Translations under genes and position numbers: made by a program
Assembly: GCA_030691725.1 (NCBI GenBank)
Contig: JAUYDQ010000067.1
Location: 1 to 11,457, forward strand
Direction of reading: 5' to 3'
Origin: Candidatus Omnitrophota bacterium
Lineage (GTDB): Bacteria; Omnitrophota; Gorgyraeia; Gygaellales; Profunditerraquicolaceae
DNA length: 11,457 nt
The notes under the pieces: generated by a model
The model's database searches: none
What the model was told of the DNA's origin: nothing
What the model saw: the letters and a program-made list of their open reading frames with translations, nothing else
Shown: piece after piece, positions 2,245 through 11,457 of the stretch
How positions within the stretch are numbered: position 1 is the first letter of the stretch
Layout of the letters: every line of letters starts with the position of its first letter

Positions 2245-3453
2245 ATGTTTAAACTTTCTAAAAAAATAAAATTGCTTCCGCCGTATCTTTTCTTGGAAAT
2301 AGATAAAGCAAAGGGGAAAGCTAGGCAGGAGGGCAGGGACATTATTGATTTAGGAGTAGGTGACCCGGATCAACCTACGCCTGCTCATATTATTGAGAAA
2401 CTATATCAGGCAGCGCGTGATCCTTCAACCCATCGTTATGCTTTAGACCAGGGACTGTTAGGGTTACGTAAGGCTATTGCCGAGTGGTATGAGCAGCGGT
2501 TCAATGTAAAGCTTGACCCTGAAACTGAAATCTTGCCTTTAATTGGCTCCAAAGAAGGTATTGCTCATTTTCCTTTGGCATTTTTAGATGAGGACGAGTA
2601 CTCTTTACTGCCTGATCCTTGTTATCCACCCTATAAAGGCGGAACAATCCTTGCTGGCGGAAAACCGTATCTTATGCCGCTTAAAGAAGAAAATGCGTTT
2701 TTGCCTGACTTAAAAAAGATTCCCCTGAATATAATCCGGAAAGCAAAGTTAATGTATATTAATTATCCTAATAATCCGACTGGAGCAATCGCAGAAAGAG
2801 ATTTTTATAAAGACGTCGTTAAGTTTGCTACTAAAAATAAAATTATTGTTATTTCGGATTTAGCTTATTCTGAGATTGCTTATGACGGTTACAGGCCATC
2901 TAGTTTCTTAGAAGTTGAAGGGGGCAAAGATGTAGGTATAGAATTCCATTCTTTATCTAAAACTTATAATATGACAGGTTGGCGGATAGGCTGGGCTTGC
3001 GGCAATACTAAATTAATATCAGCCTTAGCAAAAGTTAAATCGAACATTGACTCCGGGATATTCTCGGCAATCCAATTAGCAGGTATTGCTGCTTTGGAAG
3101 GATCCAGCCAGTACATTAAAGATATGTGCCGGCTTTATCAAGAGCGGCGCAATACCTTAATTAGAGGCTTAAATTCTTTGGGTTGGCATACAAATCCGCC
3201 CAAAGCTACTTTTTATGTCTGGATAAAAGTTCCCAAAAAAACCAACACTTCGGTTTCGCTTGAGTGTCGTGGTGAGCATAGTCGAACCGCCAATTCTATA
3301 AAATTTTCTGCATTATTATTAGAGAAAGCAAATATTGTAGTTACTCCTGGCGTGGGTTTCGGTAAATACGGAGAAGGTTATATTCGCATGGCCTTGACTG
3401 TTTCTGGAGAGAGAATTCAAGAGGCCATTGAACGCTTAAAAAGAATCCTCTAA
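2245..3453 (+). CDS. dapL: LL-diaminopimelate aminotransferase, with a repeat-derived insertion
   Basis: DapL is a PLP enzyme that makes LL-diaminopimelate directly from tetrahydrodipicolinate and glutamate, replacing the DapD/DapC/DapE route. The start LLPPYLFLEIDKAK and GVGDPDQPTPAHI fit the family. Other landmarks are YPNNPTGA (174-181), DLAYSEIAYDG, and SLSKTYNMTGWRIGW with the PLP-binding Lys239. The C-terminus has TPGVGFGKYGEGYIRMALT. Between ATFYVWIKVPKK and SIKFSALLLEKA the protein has about 16 extra residues, encoded by a TTCGACT-type palindromic element at 3251-3289, which explains part of the 402-residue length. The frame stays open across it. No clear ribosome binding site is seen before the ATG; translation probably continues from dapB, seven bases upstream. 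The stop overlaps the folK start (TAATG). Confidence 0.96.
   Translation: MFKLSKKIKLLPPYLFLEIDKAKGKARQEGRDIIDLGVGDPDQPTPAHIIEKLYQAARDPSTHRYALDQGLLGLRKAIAEWYEQRFNVKLDPETEILPLIGSKEGIAHFPLAFLDEDEYSLLPDPCYPPYKGGTILAGGKPYLMPLKEENAFLPDLKKIPLNIIRKAKLMYINYPNNPTGAIAERDFYKDVVKFATKNKIIVISDLAYSEIAYDGYRPSSFLEVEGGKDVGIEFHSLSKTYNMTGWRIGWACGNTKLISALAKVKSNIDSGIFSAIQLAGIAALEGSSQYIKDMCRLYQERRNTLIRGLNSLGWHTNPPKATFYVWIKVPKKTNTSVSLECRGEHSRTANSIKFSALLLEKANIVVTPGVGFGKYGEGYIRMALTVSGERIQEAIERLKRIL
3251..3289 (+). repeat. TTCGACT-type palindromic element inserted in frame in dapL
   Basis: The element runs from CGGTT (3251-3255) to the complementary AACCG (3285-3289) and contains GAGCATAGTCGAA. This resembles the widespread dispersed repeat with core CTGAGCGTAGTCGAA. 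It encodes SVSLECRGEHSRT, foreign to aligned DapL proteins as remembered, between two conserved strands. The exact ends cannot be fixed without a second copy or an alignment. A related element lies at 3855-3905. Confidence 0.7.
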
Positions 3454-3683
3454 TGGCAGTTTGTTATCTGGCAGTGGGCTCAAATTTAGGAAACAGAAGA
3501 AATAATATTAAAAAGGCATTGGATTATTTAGCTAAAACCAAAGGTATAAAAATAGAGAAGACCTCGCGGATTTATGAAACCGAACCGGTAGGCGGCCCGC
3601 CACAAGATAAGTTTTTGAATGCTGCCATAAAAATTAAGACTTCACTCTCCCCCCAGTTACTCCTTAATAATATAAAAAAATAG
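3453..3683 (+). CDS. folK: HPPK (folate biosynthesis), N-terminal frame of a split folK
   Basis: FolK (6-hydroxymethyl-7,8-dihydropterin pyrophosphokinase) transfers pyrophosphate from ATP to the pterin for folate synthesis. This frame starts at an ATG overlapping the dapL stop by one base, suggesting coupled translation. It gives 76 residues with AVGSNLGNRRNNIKKAL, SRIYETEPVGGPPQDKFLNAA and SLSPQLLLNNIKK. It then meets TAG immediately after seven A residues (3674-3680). The family continues for about 80 more residues, including the metal-binding aspartates, and these are present in the -1 frame. Taken alone this product would lack catalytic residues. Three explanations fit: a one-base sequencing or assembly error, a true mutation, or slippage at the A run that rejoins the frames. 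Confidence 0.88.
   Translation: MAVCYLAVGSNLGNRRNNIKKALDYLAKTKGIKIEKTSRIYETEPVGGPPQDKFLNAAIKIKTSLSPQLLLNNIKK
3674..3680 (+). other. A7 slippery heptamer at the folK frame break
   Basis: The zero-frame codons are ATA AAA AAA TAG, so the heptamer A AAA AAA sits in the classical -1 slippage register directly before a stop codon. A -1 shift, or transcripts with one extra A, yields the intact FolK signature downstream. No strong pseudoknot was noticed downstream by eye. Confidence 0.6.
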
Positions 3684-3854
3684 AGAAAGATTTAGGCCGT
3701 AGAAAATCCGTTCGTTGGGGCCCTCGCCAAATAGATTTAGATATTTTACTCTACGCAAATAAGATTATAAAACGAAAGAATCTGGTGATTCCTCATCCTC
3801 GGATGTTTGAGCGGGAATTTGTTTTAAAACCATTAAGAGAAATTATATGGCCCA

Positions 3855-3905
3855 TTCGACTTTCGTTTGAGGGTCTATCCTTGAGCGACCGAAGGGAGTC
3901 GAAGG
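3855..3905 (+). repeat. TTCGACT...AGTCGAA element across the folK/panC junction
   Basis: TTCGACT (3855-3861) and AGTCGAA (3897-3903) are perfect inverted ends, with TTTGAGGG and CCTTGAG segments between them. The element encodes the last residues of the FolK continuation. It also contains AGGGAG (3893-3898), seven bases before the panC ATG. Its core resembles the element in dapL. Confidence 0.75.
3893..3898 (+). promoter_or_regulatory. panC ribosome binding site, located inside a repeat element
   Basis: AGGGAG ends seven bases before the panC ATG at 3906, a good position. All of it lies within the palindromic element at 3855-3905, so the repeat appears to have been adopted as the translation signal for panC. 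Confidence 0.6.
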
Positions 3906-4787
3906 ATGAAAATTATTCGTAGTATAAAAGAAATGTCCAATTTTTCGCAGATGATGCATATTAAAGGCAAAACCATTGGTTTTGTGCCGACAATGGGCGC
4001 ATTGCACGAAGGGCACCTAACGCTTATTCGCCAGGTTCATAAAGAGAACGATATCGTTGTGGTAAGCATATTCGTTAATCCCATTCAATTTGGCCCAAAG
4101 TGGCTTTGGCTAAAGGAGGCCAAACCACGGTCCTCTGGCCTGGAAGATTATAGACGCTACCCCAGGAATCTAAAACTTGATGCCCAATTATGCGAAAAAG
4201 CAGGTGCGGATGTTATATTTTGTCCTGAGGCACAACAGATGTACCCTGGTAGTTATAAAACATATGTTAATGTTTCCGATTTAAGTGATTGTTTATGCGG
4301 AAAGTTTCGGCCCGGGCATTTTAAAGGTGTAGCTACAGTGGCCACTAAGCTTTTTAATATTGTTAACCCCGATATCGCCTATTTTGGACAAAAGGATGCT
4401 CAGCAGGCAATAATTGTAAAAAAGACGGTCGGAGATTTAAATATCCCTGTTCAAATAAAGGTTATGCCAACTATCCGTGAAAAAGACGGATTAGCAATGA
4501 GTTCGCGCAATGCCTATTTAAATAAAGAGGAAAGACAAGATGCCACAGTTTTATATCAGGCACTGATTCTAGCTAAAAATTTAATCCGGGAGGGGAATAT
4601 TAACGCTTCGGATATTATAAGAAAAATGCGGCAGTTGATAAATAAGAAGAAAAGGGCCCAGATACAATATATTTTGATTGTTGACCTAAAAGATTTGAAG
4701 CCTGTAGATAAGATAAGGGATAAAGTATTAGTCGCTCTTAGTGTCTGGATAGGCAAGACCAGACTTATCGATAATATAATAACTTAG
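3906..4787 (+). CDS. panC: Pantothenate synthetase, with a repeat-derived insertion
   Basis: PanC joins pantoate and beta-alanine using ATP to make pantothenate, the coenzyme A precursor. The nucleotidyltransferase motif TMGALHEGH gives Met30, His34 and His37. Further landmarks are FVNPIQFGP, RPGHFKGVATVATKLFNIV, GQKDAQQ (161-167) and the KMSKS-like AMSSRN (197-202). The usual FGP-NEDFDRYPR stretch is interrupted: after FGP come about 15 extra residues (KWLWLKEAKPRSSGL, residues 65-79) before EDYRRYPR. They are encoded by a palindromic element shared with nadX. This explains the length of 293 against about 280. The insertion is in frame, next to an active-site loop. The stop codon is the first part of a heptamer array. 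No panB or panD is in view. Confidence 0.95.
   Translation: MKIIRSIKEMSNFSQMMHIKGKTIGFVPTMGALHEGHLTLIRQVHKENDIVVVSIFVNPIQFGPKWLWLKEAKPRSSGLEDYRRYPRNLKLDAQLCEKAGADVIFCPEAQQMYPGSYKTYVNVSDLSDCLCGKFRPGHFKGVATVATKLFNIVNPDIAYFGQKDAQQAIIVKKTVGDLNIPVQIKVMPTIREKDGLAMSSRNAYLNKEERQDATVLYQALILAKNLIREGNINASDIIRKMRQLINKKKRAQIQYILIVDLKDLKPVDKIRDKVLVALSVWIGKTRLIDNIIT
4101..4141 (+). repeat. Two-hairpin palindromic element, copy 1 (in panC)
   Basis: The first hairpin pairs TGGCTTTGGC with GCCAAACCA (one bulged C). The second is GGTC...GGCC with a G-T wobble. Over 41 bases it matches 5051-5091 in nadX at 33 positions, and the flanks do not match, so the ends look sharp. It is read as W-L-W-L-K-E-A-K, a different frame from the nadX copy. 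Confidence 0.85.
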
Positions 4788-4899
4788 TAACTAGTAAATT
4801 AGTAACTTGTAACTAGTAATTTTTATAAAAATTTAGGAAATCTTCAATTTCTTTTGTTATTAGATTACGAGTTACTAGTTACGAGCTTACGAGTTACGA
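4785..4899 (+). repeat. Large inverted repeat of heptamer units between panC and nadX
   Basis: The 118-base gap is mostly this structure. The left arm (4785-4820) reads TAGTAAC, TAGTAAAT, TAGTAAC, TTGTAAC, TAGTAAT. The right arm (4864-4899), read on the other strand, is TCGTAAC, TCGTAAGC, TCGTAAC, TAGTAAC, TCGTAAT. Both arms are 36 bases with the same unit order, including the single eight-base unit in second place, and agree at 29 positions. The spacer (4821-4863) is AT-rich with no recognised signal. The panC stop is the first TAG of the left arm, and the right arm ends six bases before the nadX ATG. RNA from here could form a long imperfect hairpin. Confidence 0.85.
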
Positions 4900-4905
4900 A
4901 GATAT

Positions 4906-5766
4906 ATGGCTAAGTTATTAAAAATCGGAATTGTAGGTTGCGGTGCAATAGGTTCTTCTTTAGCAAAGGCAATTGTATCTGATTTCTCTGAAAAGGCCGA
5001 GCTCGCCAGCCTATATGATATTGATATAGAGAAGGCTTACAATCTATCTATGGCTTTGGCTATCGGAAGCCAAACCATGGTCTCCCGACCTATTAAGTTT
5101 AACAGAAAGTTAGCAGCTTTAAATTTAGAGGATTTAATAAATAAGGTTGATTTAGTTATTGAAGCCACAAAAGCCGATACTGCTTTTGATATTGCTAAAA
5201 AAGCAATTTCTAATTCTCGGGATATTATGATTATGAGTGTCGGTGGTATAATAGAGCATTATAAAGAATTAAAAGCATTAACAGAAGAAAAAAAGGCCCG
5301 TATTTTTATACCTTCGGGAGCTATATGCGGCATAGACGGACTGAAGGCCGCTACCTGCGGTAAGATAAATAAAGTTATTTTAACTACGAAGAAACCTCCC
5401 AAGGCATTTTTAGGAGCCCCTTATTTATTAAAGAAGAAAATACGGCTGGATAATATAGATAAAGATACAGTTCTTTTTGAAGGCAATGCCTCGCAGGCAA
5501 CAAAGGCCTTTCCGCAAAACATCAATGTTGCAGCAACCCTGAGTATGGCTGGCATTGGTCCAGAAGCTACTATAGTGCGTATTGTAGCATCGCCAACTAT
5601 AACCAGAAATATTCATGAGATAGAGATAGAGTCGGATGCCGGTAAAATAATTATTCGTTGCGAAAATGTAGTTCATCCTGATAATCCTAAAACAAGCTAT
5701 CTTGCGGTTCTGTCAGCAATAGCAACTTTGAAACAGGTTTTAGAGCCGATTAAAATCGGCACTTAA
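4906..5766 (+). CDS. nadX: L-aspartate dehydrogenase (NadX type), with a repeat-derived insertion
   Basis: This enzyme oxidises L-aspartate to iminoaspartate with NAD(P)+. In some bacteria it feeds NadA in NAD synthesis in place of the NadB oxidase. The N-terminal Rossmann motif is GIVGCGAIG (8-16). Other family blocks are FIPSGAICGIDGLKAA, KPPKAF, VLFEGNASQATKAFPQNINVAATL and RNIHEI with the likely catalytic His237. The C-terminus has NPKTSYLAVLSAIATL. These closely recall the Thermotoga maritima enzyme of about 241 residues. The extra length (286) is partly due to MALAIGSQTMVSRP (about residues 49-62), encoded by the same palindromic element that interrupts panC, between two strands of the Rossmann fold. 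The ribosome binding site is weak and abuts a heptamer array. No nadA or nadC is in view, so the link to NAD synthesis is inferred. Confidence 0.9.
   Translation: MAKLLKIGIVGCGAIGSSLAKAIVSDFSEKAELASLYDIDIEKAYNLSMALAIGSQTMVSRPIKFNRKLAALNLEDLINKVDLVIEATKADTAFDIAKKAISNSRDIMIMSVGGIIEHYKELKALTEEKKARIFIPSGAICGIDGLKAATCGKINKVILTTKKPPKAFLGAPYLLKKKIRLDNIDKDTVLFEGNASQATKAFPQNINVAATLSMAGIGPEATIVRIVASPTITRNIHEIEIESDAGKIIIRCENVVHPDNPKTSYLAVLSAIATLKQVLEPIKIGT
5051..5091 (+). repeat. Two-hairpin palindromic element, copy 2 (in nadX)
   Basis: TGGCTTTGGCT (5051-5061) pairs with AGCCAAACCA (5068-5077) with one bulged C. GGTC (5079-5082) then pairs with GACC (5087-5090). The two-hairpin layout is the same as in panC, and the second stem shows the full Watson-Crick form of the wobble pair there. 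It is translated one frame off relative to panC (A-L-A-I-G-S-Q-T), so the DNA or RNA, not the peptide, is what the copies share. Confidence 0.85.
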
Positions 5767-6043: not shown

Positions 6044-6056
6044 GTATCTAAAAAAG

Positions 6057-6113
6057 TCCCGCCCTTTCTTACTTTGAAGTGACCCTTCGCAGTAGAAAGG
6101 GCGGGGTTTTTTT
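6057..6113 (+). terminator. Strong intrinsic terminator after the small basic gene
   Basis: CCCGCCCTTTCT (6058-6069) pairs perfectly with AGAAAGGGCGGG (6094-6105), extended by a T-G pair, and is followed by a run of seven T (6107-6113). The 24-base loop contains a small ACTT/AAGT hairpin. The other strand also has a T run past the stem, so it could work in both directions. It closes the dapF-to-small-protein unit 14 bases after the last stop codon. Confidence 0.93.
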
Positions 6114-6130: not shown

Positions 6131-8953
6131 ATGGAGAATATAATTATTATAAGAGGCGCTAAAGAACATAACTTAAAAAATATAAGTCTAAAGCTGCCTC
6201 GCAATAAACTTATTGTTATTACCGGACTTTCTGGCTCGGGTAAATCCAGCCTTGCCTTTGATACTATCTATGCCGAAGGTCAAAGGCGCTATGTAGAAAG
6301 CCTATCCAGCTATGCCCGCCATTTTTTAGAGCAGTTACAGAAACCAGATGTAGAATATATTGAAGGCTTATCTCCGGCTATAGCTATTGAACAAAGAACA
6401 GCCGGAGGAAATCCCCGCTCAACAGTAGGGACACAAACTGAGATTTACGACTATCTAAGGATCCTTTTTGCGCGTATCGGAAAAGTATTATGTTATCAAT
6501 GTGGAGAGCCTATAGAGAAACAGAGTGCGCAGGAGATTGTCCAAAGAGTCATGACTTTACCGCTCAATACAGATATCCAGATATTAGCACCGCTCGTGCG
6601 GGGAAGAAAAGGAGAATATAAAGATATATTTAGTCAGATTCAAAAAGCAGGATTTATACGCGTGCGCGTTGACGGTGCGATTTACGAATTACCTGTAAAA
6701 ATAAAACTTAAGAAATACACTATTCACAATATTGAAGTCCTGGTAGATAGGATCAAGATAAAACCGGACGTAAAAAATAGGCTTACAGATTCTATAGAGA
6801 CAGCGCTTAAAGTAGGCAAAGGAATAGTTATAGTAAACAGGCCACAGTCCCCGCCAAAGGCGGGTCCGCCTTCGGCGGAAACAGACCAGATATTCAGTGA
6901 GCAATACGCCTGTACAAGATGCGGTATTAGTTATTCTGAAATTGAACCGCGGATGTTCTCTTTTAATTCTCCTTATGGAGCATGCACTGATTGCAATGGC
7001 CTGGGTACAAAACTTGAATTTGATCCAGATTTAGTTATTCCCGATAAAAGCAAATCTATAAATGACGGAGCAATTGAACCTTGGAAAAGAGGCGGAAGAG
7101 GATATATCATTTATTATCGCGCGCTCATCCGTGAACTGTCTTCTAAGATGCAGTTCGATTTAGATACACCATTCAATAAATTAACCAAGGAGGTGCAGAA
7201 GGCCATACTCTACGGAACTGATGAATATATCTGGGGCAAGCGTTTTGAAGGCGTTATTCCGCATCTCGAAAGATTGTTTCATCAGACGGAAAGCGACTAT
7301 TTAAAAGAAGAAATCTCCAGATTTATGTCCAGCCTTCCCTGTCCGGCCTGTCTCGGAGCAAGACTTAAGAAAGAAAGCTTAGCCGTGAAGATTAACAATG
7401 GAAACATCTGGGACGTAACACAGATGACTATAAGAGAAGCCCACAATTTTTTTATAAAATTAGAATTAACAGAAAGACAAAGAATAATTGCTCAACAGGC
7501 GTTAAAAGGGATAATTCAGAAACTACAATTCTGTATTGATGTTGGTTTAGAGTATCTGGCTTTGGACAGAAAGAGTTCAACCCTTTCAGGCGGAGAAGCG
7601 CAACGTATTAGGTTAGCCACGCAAGTTGGCTCAGGGTTAGTAGGGGTGTTATATATATTAGACGAACCCAGTATTGGTTTGCATCAGAGGGATAATGCTA
7701 AGTTAATTTCTACGCTAAAGGCCTTAAGAGACCTAGGCAACACCTTAATTGTTGTAGAGCATGATGAGTCTACAATCTTCGCAGCTGATTATATCGTCGA
7801 TTTAGGTCCGGGCGCGGGCAGGCACGGCGGAGAAGTGGTTTTTTCGGGTACAAAAGAAGACTTATTAAAGAATCCCGATTCTCTTACTGCAAAATATCTG
7901 AGAAAAGAATTAAAGATAGAGATACCTATAAAAAGAAGAGCCTGGGGGGGCAGGAAATTCTTAGAAATAAAAGGAGCCAGAGAGCATAATTTAAAGAATA
8001 TAAATGTAAAGTTTCCTTTAGGCCTCCTTATCTGTATCACAGGCGTATCTGGTTCGGGTAAATCTACCCTGATTGATGAAATACTATATCGAAGTCTCGC
8101 TCAGAAATTATATAAATCCCGGGAAAAACCCGGGCTCCATCAAAAGATTACCGGCATAGAACATATAGATAAGGTTATTGTGGTAGACCAGTCTCCTATA
8201 GGGAGGACGCCGCGCTCAAATCCTGCTACTTATACCGGTGTATTTAGCCACATCAGGGACATATTCAATAAACTCCCCCAAGCGCGTATTCGGGGTTATA
8301 AACCAGGCAGATTCTCTTTTAATGTCAAGGGCGGCCGCTGTGAGGCATGCTCAGGCGATGGTATAAAAAAGATTGAGATGCATTTCCTTCCCGATGTCTA
8401 TGTAAAATGCGACGTATGCAAGGCTAGGCGTTTTAATGAAGCAACCTTAGAAATAAAATATAAAGGAAAATCCATTGCCGATGTCCTGGATATGACTGTG
8501 GAGGAGGCGGTGGATTTATTTGCCAATATACCCAAGATAAAAAACATTCTCACTTACCTTTATGATGTAGGGTTAGGTTATATTGAGCTCGGTCAATCTG
8601 CAACTACATTATCAGGCGGTGAGGCACAACGCGTAAAGCTTTCATCAGAGTTAAGTAAACGCTCAACCGGCAAAACCCTTTATCTTTTGGATGAGCCTAC
8701 GACGGGTTTGCATTTTGCGGATGTAGGTAAGCTCCTTTCAGTTCTTCAGAGATTAGTGGATAAGGGTAACACCGTTTGCGTAATTGAACATAACTTAGAA
8801 GTAATAAAATGTGCTGATTATATTATTGATCTAGGGCCCCAAGGCGGAGAAAACGGCGGAAAAATTGTAGGCTTCGGCAGCCCCGAAGAGTTACTCAGCA
8901 ATAAAGGATCGTATACAGCACAATCTTTAAGAAAGGTATTGAAGAGTGGATAA
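6131..8953 (+). CDS. uvrA: Excinuclease ABC subunit A, with a double-hairpin insertion
   Basis: UvrA is the damage-recognition ATPase of nucleotide excision repair and loads UvrB on DNA as a dimer. At 940 residues it has the full family length. The first ATPase half has Walker [10 protein letters not shown] (32-40, Lys38), signature LSGGEAQR (from 485) and Walker B LYILDEP (Asp511). The second has GVSGSGKST (638-646, Lys644), LSGGEAQR (from 827) and LYLLDEP (Asp854). Zinc modules show Cys261, Cys264, Cys285 and Cys288, and Cys737, Cys740, Cys760 and Cys763. The insertion-domain blocks [11 protein letters not shown] and [12 protein letters not shown] are present. About 12 residues ([15 protein letters not shown] region, 239-253) just before Cys261 come from a GC-rich double hairpin. 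The gene has its own promoter and no ribosome binding site. An active protein is expected because all motifs are intact. Confidence 0.98.
6850..6879 (+). repeat. GC-rich double-hairpin element inserted in frame in uvrA
   Basis: Two adjacent hairpins are seen: CCCGCC/GGCGGG around AAA (6850-6864), then TCCGCC/GGCGGA around TTC (6865-6879). The halves also pair with each other. The base composition is far more GC-rich than the surrounding gene. The 30 bases are exactly ten codons, giving a proline-rich [10 protein letters not shown] peptide ahead of the zinc module. Confidence 0.8.
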
Positions 8954-8976: not shown

Positions 8977-11457
8977 ATGACCAATTTTAAATTAAAATTT
9001 CTAAAAATCATTTTATTATTAATATTTATTACGAACTACGAACTACGAACTACGAACTACGAACTACTTGCCCAGGAGCCATCTAAGGAGGAAGAGACGC
9101 TTTTTGTAGCCAAAAAGGCGTTCGAGGATGGTTTCTATGATGTAGCATTAGGCTTATTTGGACGTTTCTTGAAGAACTACCCGAGTTCATCAAAAATACC
9201 AGAGGTAAATCTATTAACGGGTGAGTGTTATTTTCGTCAAAATAGATTTCTGGATGCTTTAGCAAAGTTTGAAGAACTTCAAGGCCAAGGCGCCGCACAG
9301 AATATTAAAGACGCCATCCTTTATTGGGTGGCGGAAGTGCATTTTAAGGGTAATAATTTTACCAAGGCAAGCCAGTATTATAAGGCGATTATCGAGGGAT
9401 TCCCTAAATCTTCCTATTGCCTTTATGCCTATTACTCATTGGGCTGGTGTTTATTCCAGGAGGCTAAGTTTGACGAAGCCATCAAATATTTTAAAATTGT
9501 AGAAGAGAAGTTTCCCAAAGAACCCCAGGCCCAAGACTCGTCATTTAAGATAATCGAGTGCCTTTACAACTTAAAGGATTACTCCGGGTTAAAAGACAGT
9601 CTTAAGTCTTACCTTAAATTATATTCTAAGGATACTGCGCATGTGCCTTATTTATATTTCTATATGGCTGAGGCAGATTATTATTTGACCAATTTCCAAG
9701 AGGCAATCGATGAATATTCCAAAGTTATCACAAGTTCAGGCGATGAGAGGATACAGGGATTATCCAAATTAGGTATCGGCTGGGCTTATCTTAAATTAAA
9801 GCGGTATAAGGAATCCGGGGATACATTTTCCGAGATAAAAACCGATAATCTGGACAAAAAGAACCGGGATATTCTATTATTAGGTAAGGCAACATTGAGT
9901 TTAGAAACAAAGAGCTTTACTGAGGCAGGAAACCTTTACGGTGAATTAGCAAATACAACCTTGGATCAGGTTATTCTAATACAGGCTTACCTGGGTAAGG
10001 CAGACGCATATTATAATACCGCTGAATATAAGAAAGCAATAAGTGTATATGAAGAAGCGTTGAATAAGACTTCGGAATCTGCTTCACAAGAAAACGTCGA
10101 TAAGTTACATTACGGCCTGGCCTGGGCTTTTTTAAAAGAGGGTGAATTTAAAAAGGCAATAGATGAGTTTCAAAAGATTGCTAAACACACAGAAGATAAA
10201 ATAGTTAAGGTTGCTGCGCTTTGTCAAATAGGAGATGCCTATCAAGACTTGGGTGATTATAATAAGGCCATTGAAACATATGATAGCATATTGAAAAATT
10301 ATCCTGATAGTTTATATAGCGATTATATCCAGTATCAACTAGGCATTACATTACTGAAAACCTCTAATTACGACGGTGCCATTATGGCATTTCAGAGTCT
10401 GAAAAATCATTTTCCCGACTCAAAGCTATTAGACGATGCAACTTACGCTTTGGGGCTAGCCTATTTTCAGAGACAAGACTATAAATCCAGTAAAGAAATC
10501 TTTGAAAAGTTTCAGGATGAATTTAAAGATAGCAACTTAAAGCCTGAAAGCTTGTATCTTTTAGGAACGAGCCTATATAATTTAGGTGATTTTGCGAAAG
10601 CCTTAGAGGTTTTTAAGAATATTATAAGGATGTATAATCAAAATACAGAGCTCATCCAGAAGGCTGAATACGAGATAGCCGATTGTTACTATCAGATGGG
10701 TAATGAAAAAGAGGCAATGGAGAGATTCAAAATATTGCGTTCTAAATATCCGGATTCTAAACTTACTCCTGAAGTTATGTGGTGGCTGGCTGAATACTAT
10801 TACAGGCACAACGAGTTAAGTTTGGCGCGAAGGTACTTCTCTTCGCTTATACAAGATTTTCCCAAAAATAATTTAATCCCCGATGCTTATTATGCCTTAG
10901 GTTCAACTTATGCAGAAGAAAATAAAAATGAGGAAGCTATAGATAATTTCAAAAAGGTAATTGAATTAGGTAAGTCTGATCTTGCTGGCACGGCAAGTAT
11001 TGCAATAGCAGATATATATACTAAACAGGACAAAATTGATTTGTCACTAGGGATTTATAAAGACGTAGTCAGTGAGTATCCTAATTTGGCAAGCCTAATT
11101 TATCCTAAGATTGCGGACCTTTATCGCAAAATAAGTAATTATGGCGAGGCAATAAATTTCTATCGTAAAAGTTTAAATATAGTACCGGCAAGAGAAATGG
11201 TAGATATTCAATTTAAGATAGCCGAAGCTTTACAGTCAGAAGGTAGCTATCCCGAAGCAATTGAAGAATACCTGAAGGTTACTTACCTTTATTCGGAAAA
11301 TAATGATTTAGCGGTAAAGGCGCTTTTGAGAGTAGCGGCAATTTATGAAGATAAAGAAAACTTTAAAGAAGCGACCAATATCTATAAAAGAATTAACTCT
11401 ATGAATGTTCAAGAAGCAAAATATGCACAAGAGAGGATAGACTGGATAAGGGCACAT
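8977..11457 (+). CDS. Large exported tetratricopeptide-repeat protein (3' end beyond the window)
   Basis: The frame is open from the ATG at 8977 to the last base (827 codons). The N-terminus looks like a signal peptide: basic MTNFKLKFLK, hydrophobic IILLLIFI, then TNYELRTTNYELLAQE with a possible cleavage near LLAQ. The middle of this segment comes from five copies of ACGAACT. After that, roughly twenty helix-turn-helix repeats of 34-40 residues follow, with TPR consensus positions (for example GWCLFQEAKFDEAIKYF, QIGDAYQDLGDYNKAIETY, ALGLAYFQRQDYKSS) and frequent FPxS turns. The pattern resembles BamD/YbgF-like envelope TPR proteins, so a scaffold in the periplasm or outer membrane is likely, but the exact role is unknown. 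The gene begins 23 bases after uvrA and may share its transcript. No strong ribosome binding site is seen. Confidence 0.9.
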   Translation, partial: MTNFKLKFLKIILLLIFITNYELRTTNYELLAQEPSKEEETLFVAKKAFEDGFYDVALGLFGRFLKNYPSSSKIPEVNLLTGECYFRQNRFLDALAKFEELQGQGAAQNIKDAILYWVAEVHFKGNNFTKASQYYKAIIEGFPKSSYCLYAYYSLGWCLFQEAKFDEAIKYFKIVEEKFPKEPQAQDSSFKIIECLYNLKDYSGLKDSLKSYLKLYSKDTAHVPYLYFYMAEADYYLTNFQEAIDEYSKVITSSGDERIQGLSKLGIGWAYLKLKRYKESGDTFSEIKTDNLDKKNRDILLLGKATLSLETKSFTEAGNLYGELANTTLDQVILIQAYLGKADAYYNTAEYKKAISVYEEALNKTSESASQENVDKLHYGLAWAFLKEGEFKKAIDEFQKIAKHTEDKIVKVAALCQIGDAYQDLGDYNKAIETYDSILKNYPDSLYSDYIQYQLGITLLKTSNYDGAIMAFQSLKNHFPDSKLLDDATYALGLAYFQRQDYKSSKEIFEKFQDEFKDSNLKPESLYLLGTSLYNLGDFAKALEVFKNIIRMYNQNTELIQKAEYEIADCYYQMGNEKEAMERFKILRSKYPDSKLTPEVMWWLAEYYYRHNELSLARRYFSSLIQDFPKNNLIPDAYYALGSTYAEENKNEEAIDNFKKVIELGKSDLAGTASIAIADIYTKQDKIDLSLGIYKDVVSEYPNLASLIYPKIADLYRKISNYGEAINFYRKSLNIVPAREMVDIQFKIAEALQSEGSYPEAIEEYLKVTYLYSENNDLAVKALLRVAAIYEDKENFKEATNIYKRINSMNVQEAKYAQERIDWIRAH
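9031..9067 (+). repeat. Tandem heptamer repeat (ACGAACT x5) in a signal-peptide region
   Basis: Five perfect copies of ACGAACT (9031-9065) plus a partial AC lie between the hydrophobic core and the likely cleavage site of the TPR protein. They are translated as TNYELRTTNYEL because a seven-base unit cycles through all three frames. On the other strand the unit is TAGTTCG, similar in form to the units near panC and in dapF. Confidence 0.9.

Follow-up and report, generated by a model that had tools for sequence, protein, structure and literature searches.

Rickettsia palindromic elements (RPEs) are repeats of approximately 100 to 150 bp that lie within open reading frames without destroying the frame; in the excerpts available from the two accounts, some RPE families favour coding sites, and related genes either share or lack individual copies (PMC3767692, PMC10969869). 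The available part of one of these papers presents in-frame coding palindromes mainly as a Rickettsia feature (PMC10969869). In the REP/RAYT (TnpA-REP) system, as far as the accessible portion of its description goes, short bulged palindromes occur in many copies, and cleavage takes place beside the hairpin, with a flanking motif (PMC8266576). The same portion attributes to IS200/IS605 elements a subterminal hairpin with a guide sequence just 5' of it, complementarity between guide and cleavage site, and single-stranded, strand-specific movement (PMC8266576). Finally, multiple palindromic inserts occur in the protein genes of Magnusiomyces capitatus mitochondria, according to the excerpted text on that system (PMC6649704).

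Here we analyze a palindromic element present twice in an 11,457-nt stretch of DNA from a Candidatus Omnitrophota bacterium (the window), which is the whole of contig C95 in a metagenome-assembled genome (MAG) of 774 kb and 143 contigs, 83% complete. An initial annotation, made from the letters alone, had likened it to the RPEs in spite of the unrelated phylum, and the behaviour is indeed the same: the element is repeated at many loci, with 13 copies in its own genome and up to 44 matches in another (G248), and is inserted in-frame in protein-coding genes. It differs from the RPEs, as these are described in the excerpts above, in its unit of 42 nt, or 14 codons, against about 100-150 nt, and in its two-hairpin architecture, YTR^T site, pairing guide-like base, nesting and tandem arrays. 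With the REP sequences of the excerpted account it shares a short bulged palindrome in many copies per genome, but it carries no tetranucleotide of the GTAG or CGTC type (ten aligned copies and the flank tables give YTR before the element and Y-K between the hairpins), it lies mostly in open reading frames (151/215 copies) and not in extragenic DNA, and it stands beside no Y1_Tnp gene (0/55 loci, 22 genomes); on these three tested features, REP membership fails. The pairing at its junctions resembles the guide/cleavage-site pairing described, in the portion available, for IS200/IS605 and for one REP system (PMC8266576), although the 42-nt unit has neither an internal nor a linked transposase gene, and one base seems to serve both junctions. 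From the bypassed inserts of Magnusiomyces capitatus it differs in that its length and frame are constrained in the way expected of translated sequence. No earlier description of the element was apparent in the titles and abstract openings listed from an open-licence library, and papers elsewhere could contain one.

Overall, the best explanation, to which we assign a probability of roughly 0.85, is that of a non-autonomous mobile element of 42 nt that is translated within its hosts, would move by a single-strand guide mechanism, and persists as a selfish passenger.

The two copies in panC and nadX

The features of the two copies and of their host genes are as follows.

4101..4142, + strand: palindromic element, panC copy, 42 nt (pattern, fold and alignment evidence)
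Parts of the panC copy: hairpin 1, 4101-4127; pairing pyrimidine, 4128; hairpin 2, 4129-4140; right end, T4141 G4142
5051..5092, + strand: palindromic element, nadX copy, 42 nt (pattern, fold and alignment evidence)
Parts of the nadX copy: hairpin 1, 5051-5077; pairing pyrimidine, 5078; hairpin 2, 5079-5090; right end, T5091 A5092
4098..4100, + strand: left junction trinucleotide of the panC copy, target side, AAG, of which the last base alone fits the family's YTR
5048..5050, + strand: left junction trinucleotide of the nadX copy, target side, CTA, repeating the CTA at the element's right end
3906..4787, + strand: panC host gene, pantoate-beta-alanine ligase, PF02569; 293 aa, of which 14 (residues 66-79) are inserted
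4906..5766, + strand: nadX host gene, PF03447 NAD-binding and PF01958 aspartate dehydrogenase C-terminal domains; 286 aa, of which 14 (residues 49-62) are inserted

The segments 4101-4141 and 5051-5091, which the initial annotation had singled out, agree at 33 of 41 positions (80%) without gaps and between unrelated flanks, while approximately 2e-4 pairs as similar as these would be expected by chance in the window (binomial, match probability 0.27). The 41-base match is therefore real, but the unit has to be extended to 42 nt so as to include the last base (4142 and 5092). Folding of the + strands with RNA parameters gives the same pair of hairpins for each copy, as had been claimed; with DNA parameters the two hairpins are clear in the nadX copy (z -4.9), whereas the optimum of the panC copy is weaker (z -1.8) and slightly different. 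The second stem carries the proposed wobble, with T-G in the panC copy and T-A in the nadX copy. The two copies are also read in different frames, giving W-L-W-L... in panC and M-A-L-A-I... in nadX, but the accompanying claim of unrelated peptides does not extend to the family, in which not all of them are unrelated. Moreover, the nadX 42-mer is identical to a copy in the IF-2 gene of another locus (L010).

In PanC, the 14-residue insert WLWLKEAKPRSSGL sits between FGPK and EDYRR; in NadX, MALAIGSQTMVSRP sits between NLS and IKF, where the alignment leaves one residue of slack. For each protein, 30 loci, own included, were fetched of the 52 genomes with a match, and the insert position was filled in one of the 30 rows, namely the window's own. 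The 29 other rows lack the segment in both cases, bearing out the view that the insertions fall where the families run shorter, and the one solved PanC structure shown in the alignment is gapped at the same position. This comparison and the search for further copies, both proposed in the initial annotation, spoke in its favour. In the predicted structures, the PanC model retains the PanC fold (TM 0.92 to 2ejc), with pLDDT below 50 at residues 61-82, and the NadX model shows lowered confidence at residues 51-70 (block means of 64 and 67). As modelled, each insert is a low-confidence loop within an otherwise confident structure, a statement that concerns fold only and not activity.

Fold, copy number and distribution

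Copies were found by pattern and pairing scans. The 42-nt consensus reads TGGC-TTTGGCY-(six-base loop)-RGCCAAA-CCA, followed by Y-K and a short hairpin whose loop has four bases, and closes with a pyrimidine, T and a purine. The unit was set at 42 nt because tandem copies in contig C46 are spaced by 42 and because the last base pairs inside the element, and this length is found in 154 of the 164 parsed copies; in contig C90, one copy lies within the loop of another.

The search for further copies that the initial annotation had proposed gave 13 distinct ones in the window's own MAG, 11 of them in long open reading frames. When up to three mismatches are allowed, 33 of 98 genomes (own included) contain the hairpin-1 pattern, against two matches in total for a reversed-pattern control; when up to two are allowed, it is present in 52 of 285 genomes from the phylum, again counting the own one. 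Element-bearing genomes belong mainly to the window's own family, and some to another family of the same order, while G248, an outlier elsewhere in the class, has the highest number per genome (44 pattern matches). A scan of named genomes returned at least 110 stretches, and 78 of the 80 matches listed are titled Omnitrophota or Omnitrophica. A match titled Kerfeldbacteria (L110), with one copy in its genome, reads as a putative misplaced contig; another (L071, contig 1, 10458-10484) lies at the same place as one in the own-family genome G035, and so is probably the same record. Exact element matches in viral contigs numbered zero, and an Rfam scan of the window gave none at the element and one sub-gathering-score match elsewhere (mir-5681, 6051-6111).

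A set of 215 distinct copies was gathered by a scan that requires hairpin 1 to pair, and is consequently biased for stem 1. This stem was therefore assessed in 77 copies with one to three mismatches, collected with no pairing condition: all 38 two-sided changes were paired (38/38), 11 one-sided changes led to G-T, and 32 one-sided changes broke the pair. Stem 1 also exists in subfamilies, namely TTTGCC/GGCAAA, TGCGGC/GCCGCA and TTTCGTT/AACGAAA. Stem 2 was evaluated in 130 unique exact-core copies, in whose selection it played no part, against 2000 shuffles. Pairs 30-37 (124/130) and 31-36 (121/130) exceed all 2000 shuffles, and the pyrimidine-purine pair 27-41 is formed in 115/130, with a shuffle maximum of 102. 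Pair 29-38, at 118/130, equals the shuffle maximum without rising above it, its partner slid by one column pairing more often (124), and pair 28-39 is mostly unformed (45/130, again the shuffle maximum). The aligned copies demonstrate, at the level of sequence, that compensatory changes maintain a bulged hairpin and, after it, another short one. In the predicted folds, with DNA and RNA parameters, the purine immediately preceding the element lengthens the stem of hairpin 1, pairing with the pyrimidine that follows this hairpin.

Coding sequence, junctions and mode of movement

Open reading frames with at least 120 further codons hold 151 of the 215 copies (70%), as compared to 78% of random 42-nt places in the same loci, indicating that coding DNA is hardly avoided. 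Within the parsed set (51 unparsed copies excluded), 116/154 copies of 42 nt lie in such frames, against 0/10 of those of 41 or 43 nt; this test and the rarity of the stop-bearing frame hold partly by construction, as copies that shift the frame or carry a stop cannot sit within an open frame. A second test relied on the flanks only, with 40 open codons required on each side in one continuous phase and the element itself unconstrained. Copies of 42 nt were continuous in 94 of 147 cases, 92 of them open through the element and two with a stop inside, and those of 41 or 43 nt in one of 10 (p=0.001); among random 43-nt spans, 261 of 1500 lie in a continuous frame. At 60 codons, the figures are 62/144 for 42 nt and 0/10 for 41/43 nt.

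Moreover, a single frame, with the copy antisense to the gene, is used in 81 of 124 hosts (p<=1e-17, this and the preceding p value being too small, as copies share ancestry and some hosts are orthologs), while the expected share is 24-25% from site preference (weight matrix), or 27-28% without the stop frame. This frame encodes a hydrophilic linker peptide that reads like KPEGSGLASDSQSH, and the element thereby accounts for odd 14-residue inserts of this kind in Omnitrophota proteins. Of the 94 continuous copies, a single one is read in the antisense frame in which a stop is usually present, where 9-11% would be expected. All six frames occur, and the window's panC and nadX copies use minority ones. 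As about two thirds of the coding copies share one frame, the encoded peptide also appears to be filtered by selection. Pfam matches were obtained for 36 of the 38 distinct hosts scanned, those in L030 and L129 having none, and include SecA, IF-2, leucyl-tRNA synthetase, two class II tRNA synthetases, enolase, pyruvate kinase, UvrA, LpxC, ketol-acid reductoisomerase and EtfA. Judged from these frames, the 42-nt element is most probably neither removed nor bypassed, but translated and tolerated by its hosts.

Nine of 33 EtfA rows have an insertion at one and the same codon, that of G053 being a different sequence; the rows comprise 30 loci, fetched from among 52 matching genomes, and the carriers G000, L098 and L039, which were added as such. 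Carriers are scattered on the EtfA tree in the manner of shuffled labels (nine changes versus a mean of 8.0), although only three of the 30 inner branches are well supported and those are compatible with one origin. Rows without the element read GA^YAAR at the site in 19 of 23 cases, which is YTR^T on the other strand. Given the scatter of the carriers and the mostly YTR^T empty sites, this site has probably been hit, or cleanly vacated, several times. Copies at the same site keep their pairing as bases change, GCC/GGC becoming GTC/GAC in EtfA, and the same is seen in semialdehyde dehydrogenase.

The junction analysis covers those 164 of the 215 copies whose second stem could be parsed. The pyrimidine that follows hairpin 1 forms, together with the final base of the element, C-G in 78 copies, T-A in 73 and other combinations in 13, so that 151 of the 164 pair. 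With nested, tandem and repeated contexts removed (119 copies), the base immediately to the left is A beside 45 of 57 T-type elements and G beside 30 of 61 C-type elements; the commonest left trinucleotides are TTA, TTG and CTA. In a stricter set of 102 copies, 70 are followed directly by T and 55 have YTR on the left, so YTR^T is a preference and no rule. Copies nested in the loop of another have A as their target base; 27 of them are T-type and eight C-type, against 72 T to 89 C among unique other copies (p=6e-4, with about four of the 35 possibly not nested). The Y-R covariation at the right end and the left flank, together with the nested-site bias, would be in keeping with guide/cleavage pairing, but clear covariation is confined to one position and is not seen for pair 28-39.

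Mobility is suggested by the scatter of the sites and by unrelated loci that carry identical copies, and a mobile, translated palindromic element is, judging by the copies themselves, highly probable; the scattered copies and the empty sites in relatives also fit the earlier suggestion of a non-autonomous mobile palindrome that tolerates insertion into coding sequence. The element would move as folded single-stranded DNA, on which a structure-recognizing strand-transfer enzyme may act in trans, the best guess being an HUH enzyme of the IS200/IS605-like kind; in IS200/IS605, the cleavage site lies 3' of the right hairpin. Here, the pyrimidine after hairpin 1 would act as guide base for both junctions. 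The insertions themselves, as the sequences show, add 42 nt, which leaves the codon count whole, and fall mostly at YTR^T sites. Most copies would then be selfish passengers, with selection removing those that shift the frame or carry a stop and thinning those in unfavourable frames. We give the single-strand guide mechanism even odds. Tentatively, and with somewhat less assurance, the element can be seen as a 42-nt single-stranded DNA transposon with one guide base for both junctions and a length and reading frame by which it would spread through housekeeping genes as a translated linker, which would constitute an independent invention of the Rickettsia type at less than half the size. As to the enzyme, none of 55 Y1_Tnp (PF01797) loci read in 22 element-bearing genomes (30 of the 51 matches of one search, and 25 from another) has an element within about 1.5 kb, the Y1 gene of the own genome being adjoined by other repeats. 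Y1 genes were present in 28 of 33 genomes with the element and in 50 of 65 without it, with no association across these 98 genomes (p=0.43). Because the junction bases covary, the mechanism lends itself to in vitro work on short oligonucleotides.

A duplex MITE of the classical type, mobilised by a DDE transposase with a 3-bp target duplication (YTR on both sides), would predict almost the same sites. YTR often stands on both sides of the element, and the left base agrees strongly with the right end in the 119 simple copies (A/A 46, G/G 32). Nevertheless, the right-end base looks element-owned, given that it pairs with an internal base in 151/164 copies, and a duplication should decay evenly, whereas the agreement is 45/57 for A beside T-type and only 30/61 for G beside C-type elements; the usual terminal inverted repeats are also missing, since hairpins 1 and 2 differ. 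We thus regard a duplex MITE as unlikely. Chance similarity of two low-complexity stretches, or an assembly artefact, could be suspected in so fragmented a MAG (143 contigs, 83% complete), but the approximately 2e-4 such pairs expected in the window, the recurrence of copies in independent assemblies and the two control matches in total make it practically negligible.

A benefit to the host, the peptide or hairpin being kept as a linker or for RNA processing or regulation, would suit the retained stem pairing of same-site copies in related genes despite base changes, and the element identity that exceeds the ungapped flank identity in five of five same-site groups (smallest in EtfA, 0.79 versus 0.76, some flank values being lowered by misalignment). 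However, the insertions are patchy (1/30 in PanC, 1/30 in NadX, 9/33 and scattered in EtfA), the hosts are functionally unrelated and all six reading frames are represented, so that we consider such a benefit improbable as the main explanation. Translational bypass is very improbable. Under bypass, the ribosome would skip the insert and yield a protein without it, as happens with the palindromes of a yeast mitochondrion, Magnusiomyces, in the excerpted account (PMC6649704); hairpins within genes, similar trinucleotides at both ends and the two continuous-flank copies with a stop inside are of the kind it predicts. Skipped inserts, though, need be neither a multiple of three nor open, contrary to the 94/147 against 1/10 by length and the 92/94 open copies, and the strong preference for one peptide frame also speaks against it. 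As regards the preferred reading, that of a translated selfish passenger, a much smaller element in a second, unrelated phylum would demonstrate that conserved proteins can harbour selfish DNA tuned to be harmless, and the many natural pairs with and without it lend themselves to the study of how proteins accept insertions.

Other inserts and repeats

In the same EtfA region, L328 (G034), L333 (G015) and L321 (G053) carry different inserts, one of them with a GGCCTGCCTGCCGGCAGGCAG palindrome, and by its sequence the region reads as a hot spot for several coding inserts. At three further loci (L153, L085 and L126), hairpin 1 is followed by a different second part (CTGCCTTGCCGGCAGGCAGG), perhaps forming a hybrid element.

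The window contains additional repeats, described here under gene names that we presume for the reading frames concerned. A CCGCC-type palindromic, insert-like stretch of 15 residues is found at 6841-6885 in a uvrA-like frame; with up to one mismatch allowed, its 16-base core has six matches among the fetched loci and the reversed control has none, and the stretch may perhaps represent a second coding palindrome family. Another insert-like stretch, at 3246-3290 in an aminotransferase-like frame, has a GAGCATAGTCGAA core with eight matches in the fetched loci against two for the control. Tandem repeats of CTCGCTA occupy 390-422 in the coding sequence of a dapF-like frame, those of ACGAACT lie at 9030-9068 near the start of a TPR-like frame, and TTACGAG-like repeats are present in the gap 4786-4900. 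Upstream of panC, the region 3501-3906 has a folK-like reading that is not a single frame of at least 90 aa and meets a stop near 3681, attributable either to decay or to an assembly error, and a palindrome bearing GTCGAAGG lies ahead of panC.
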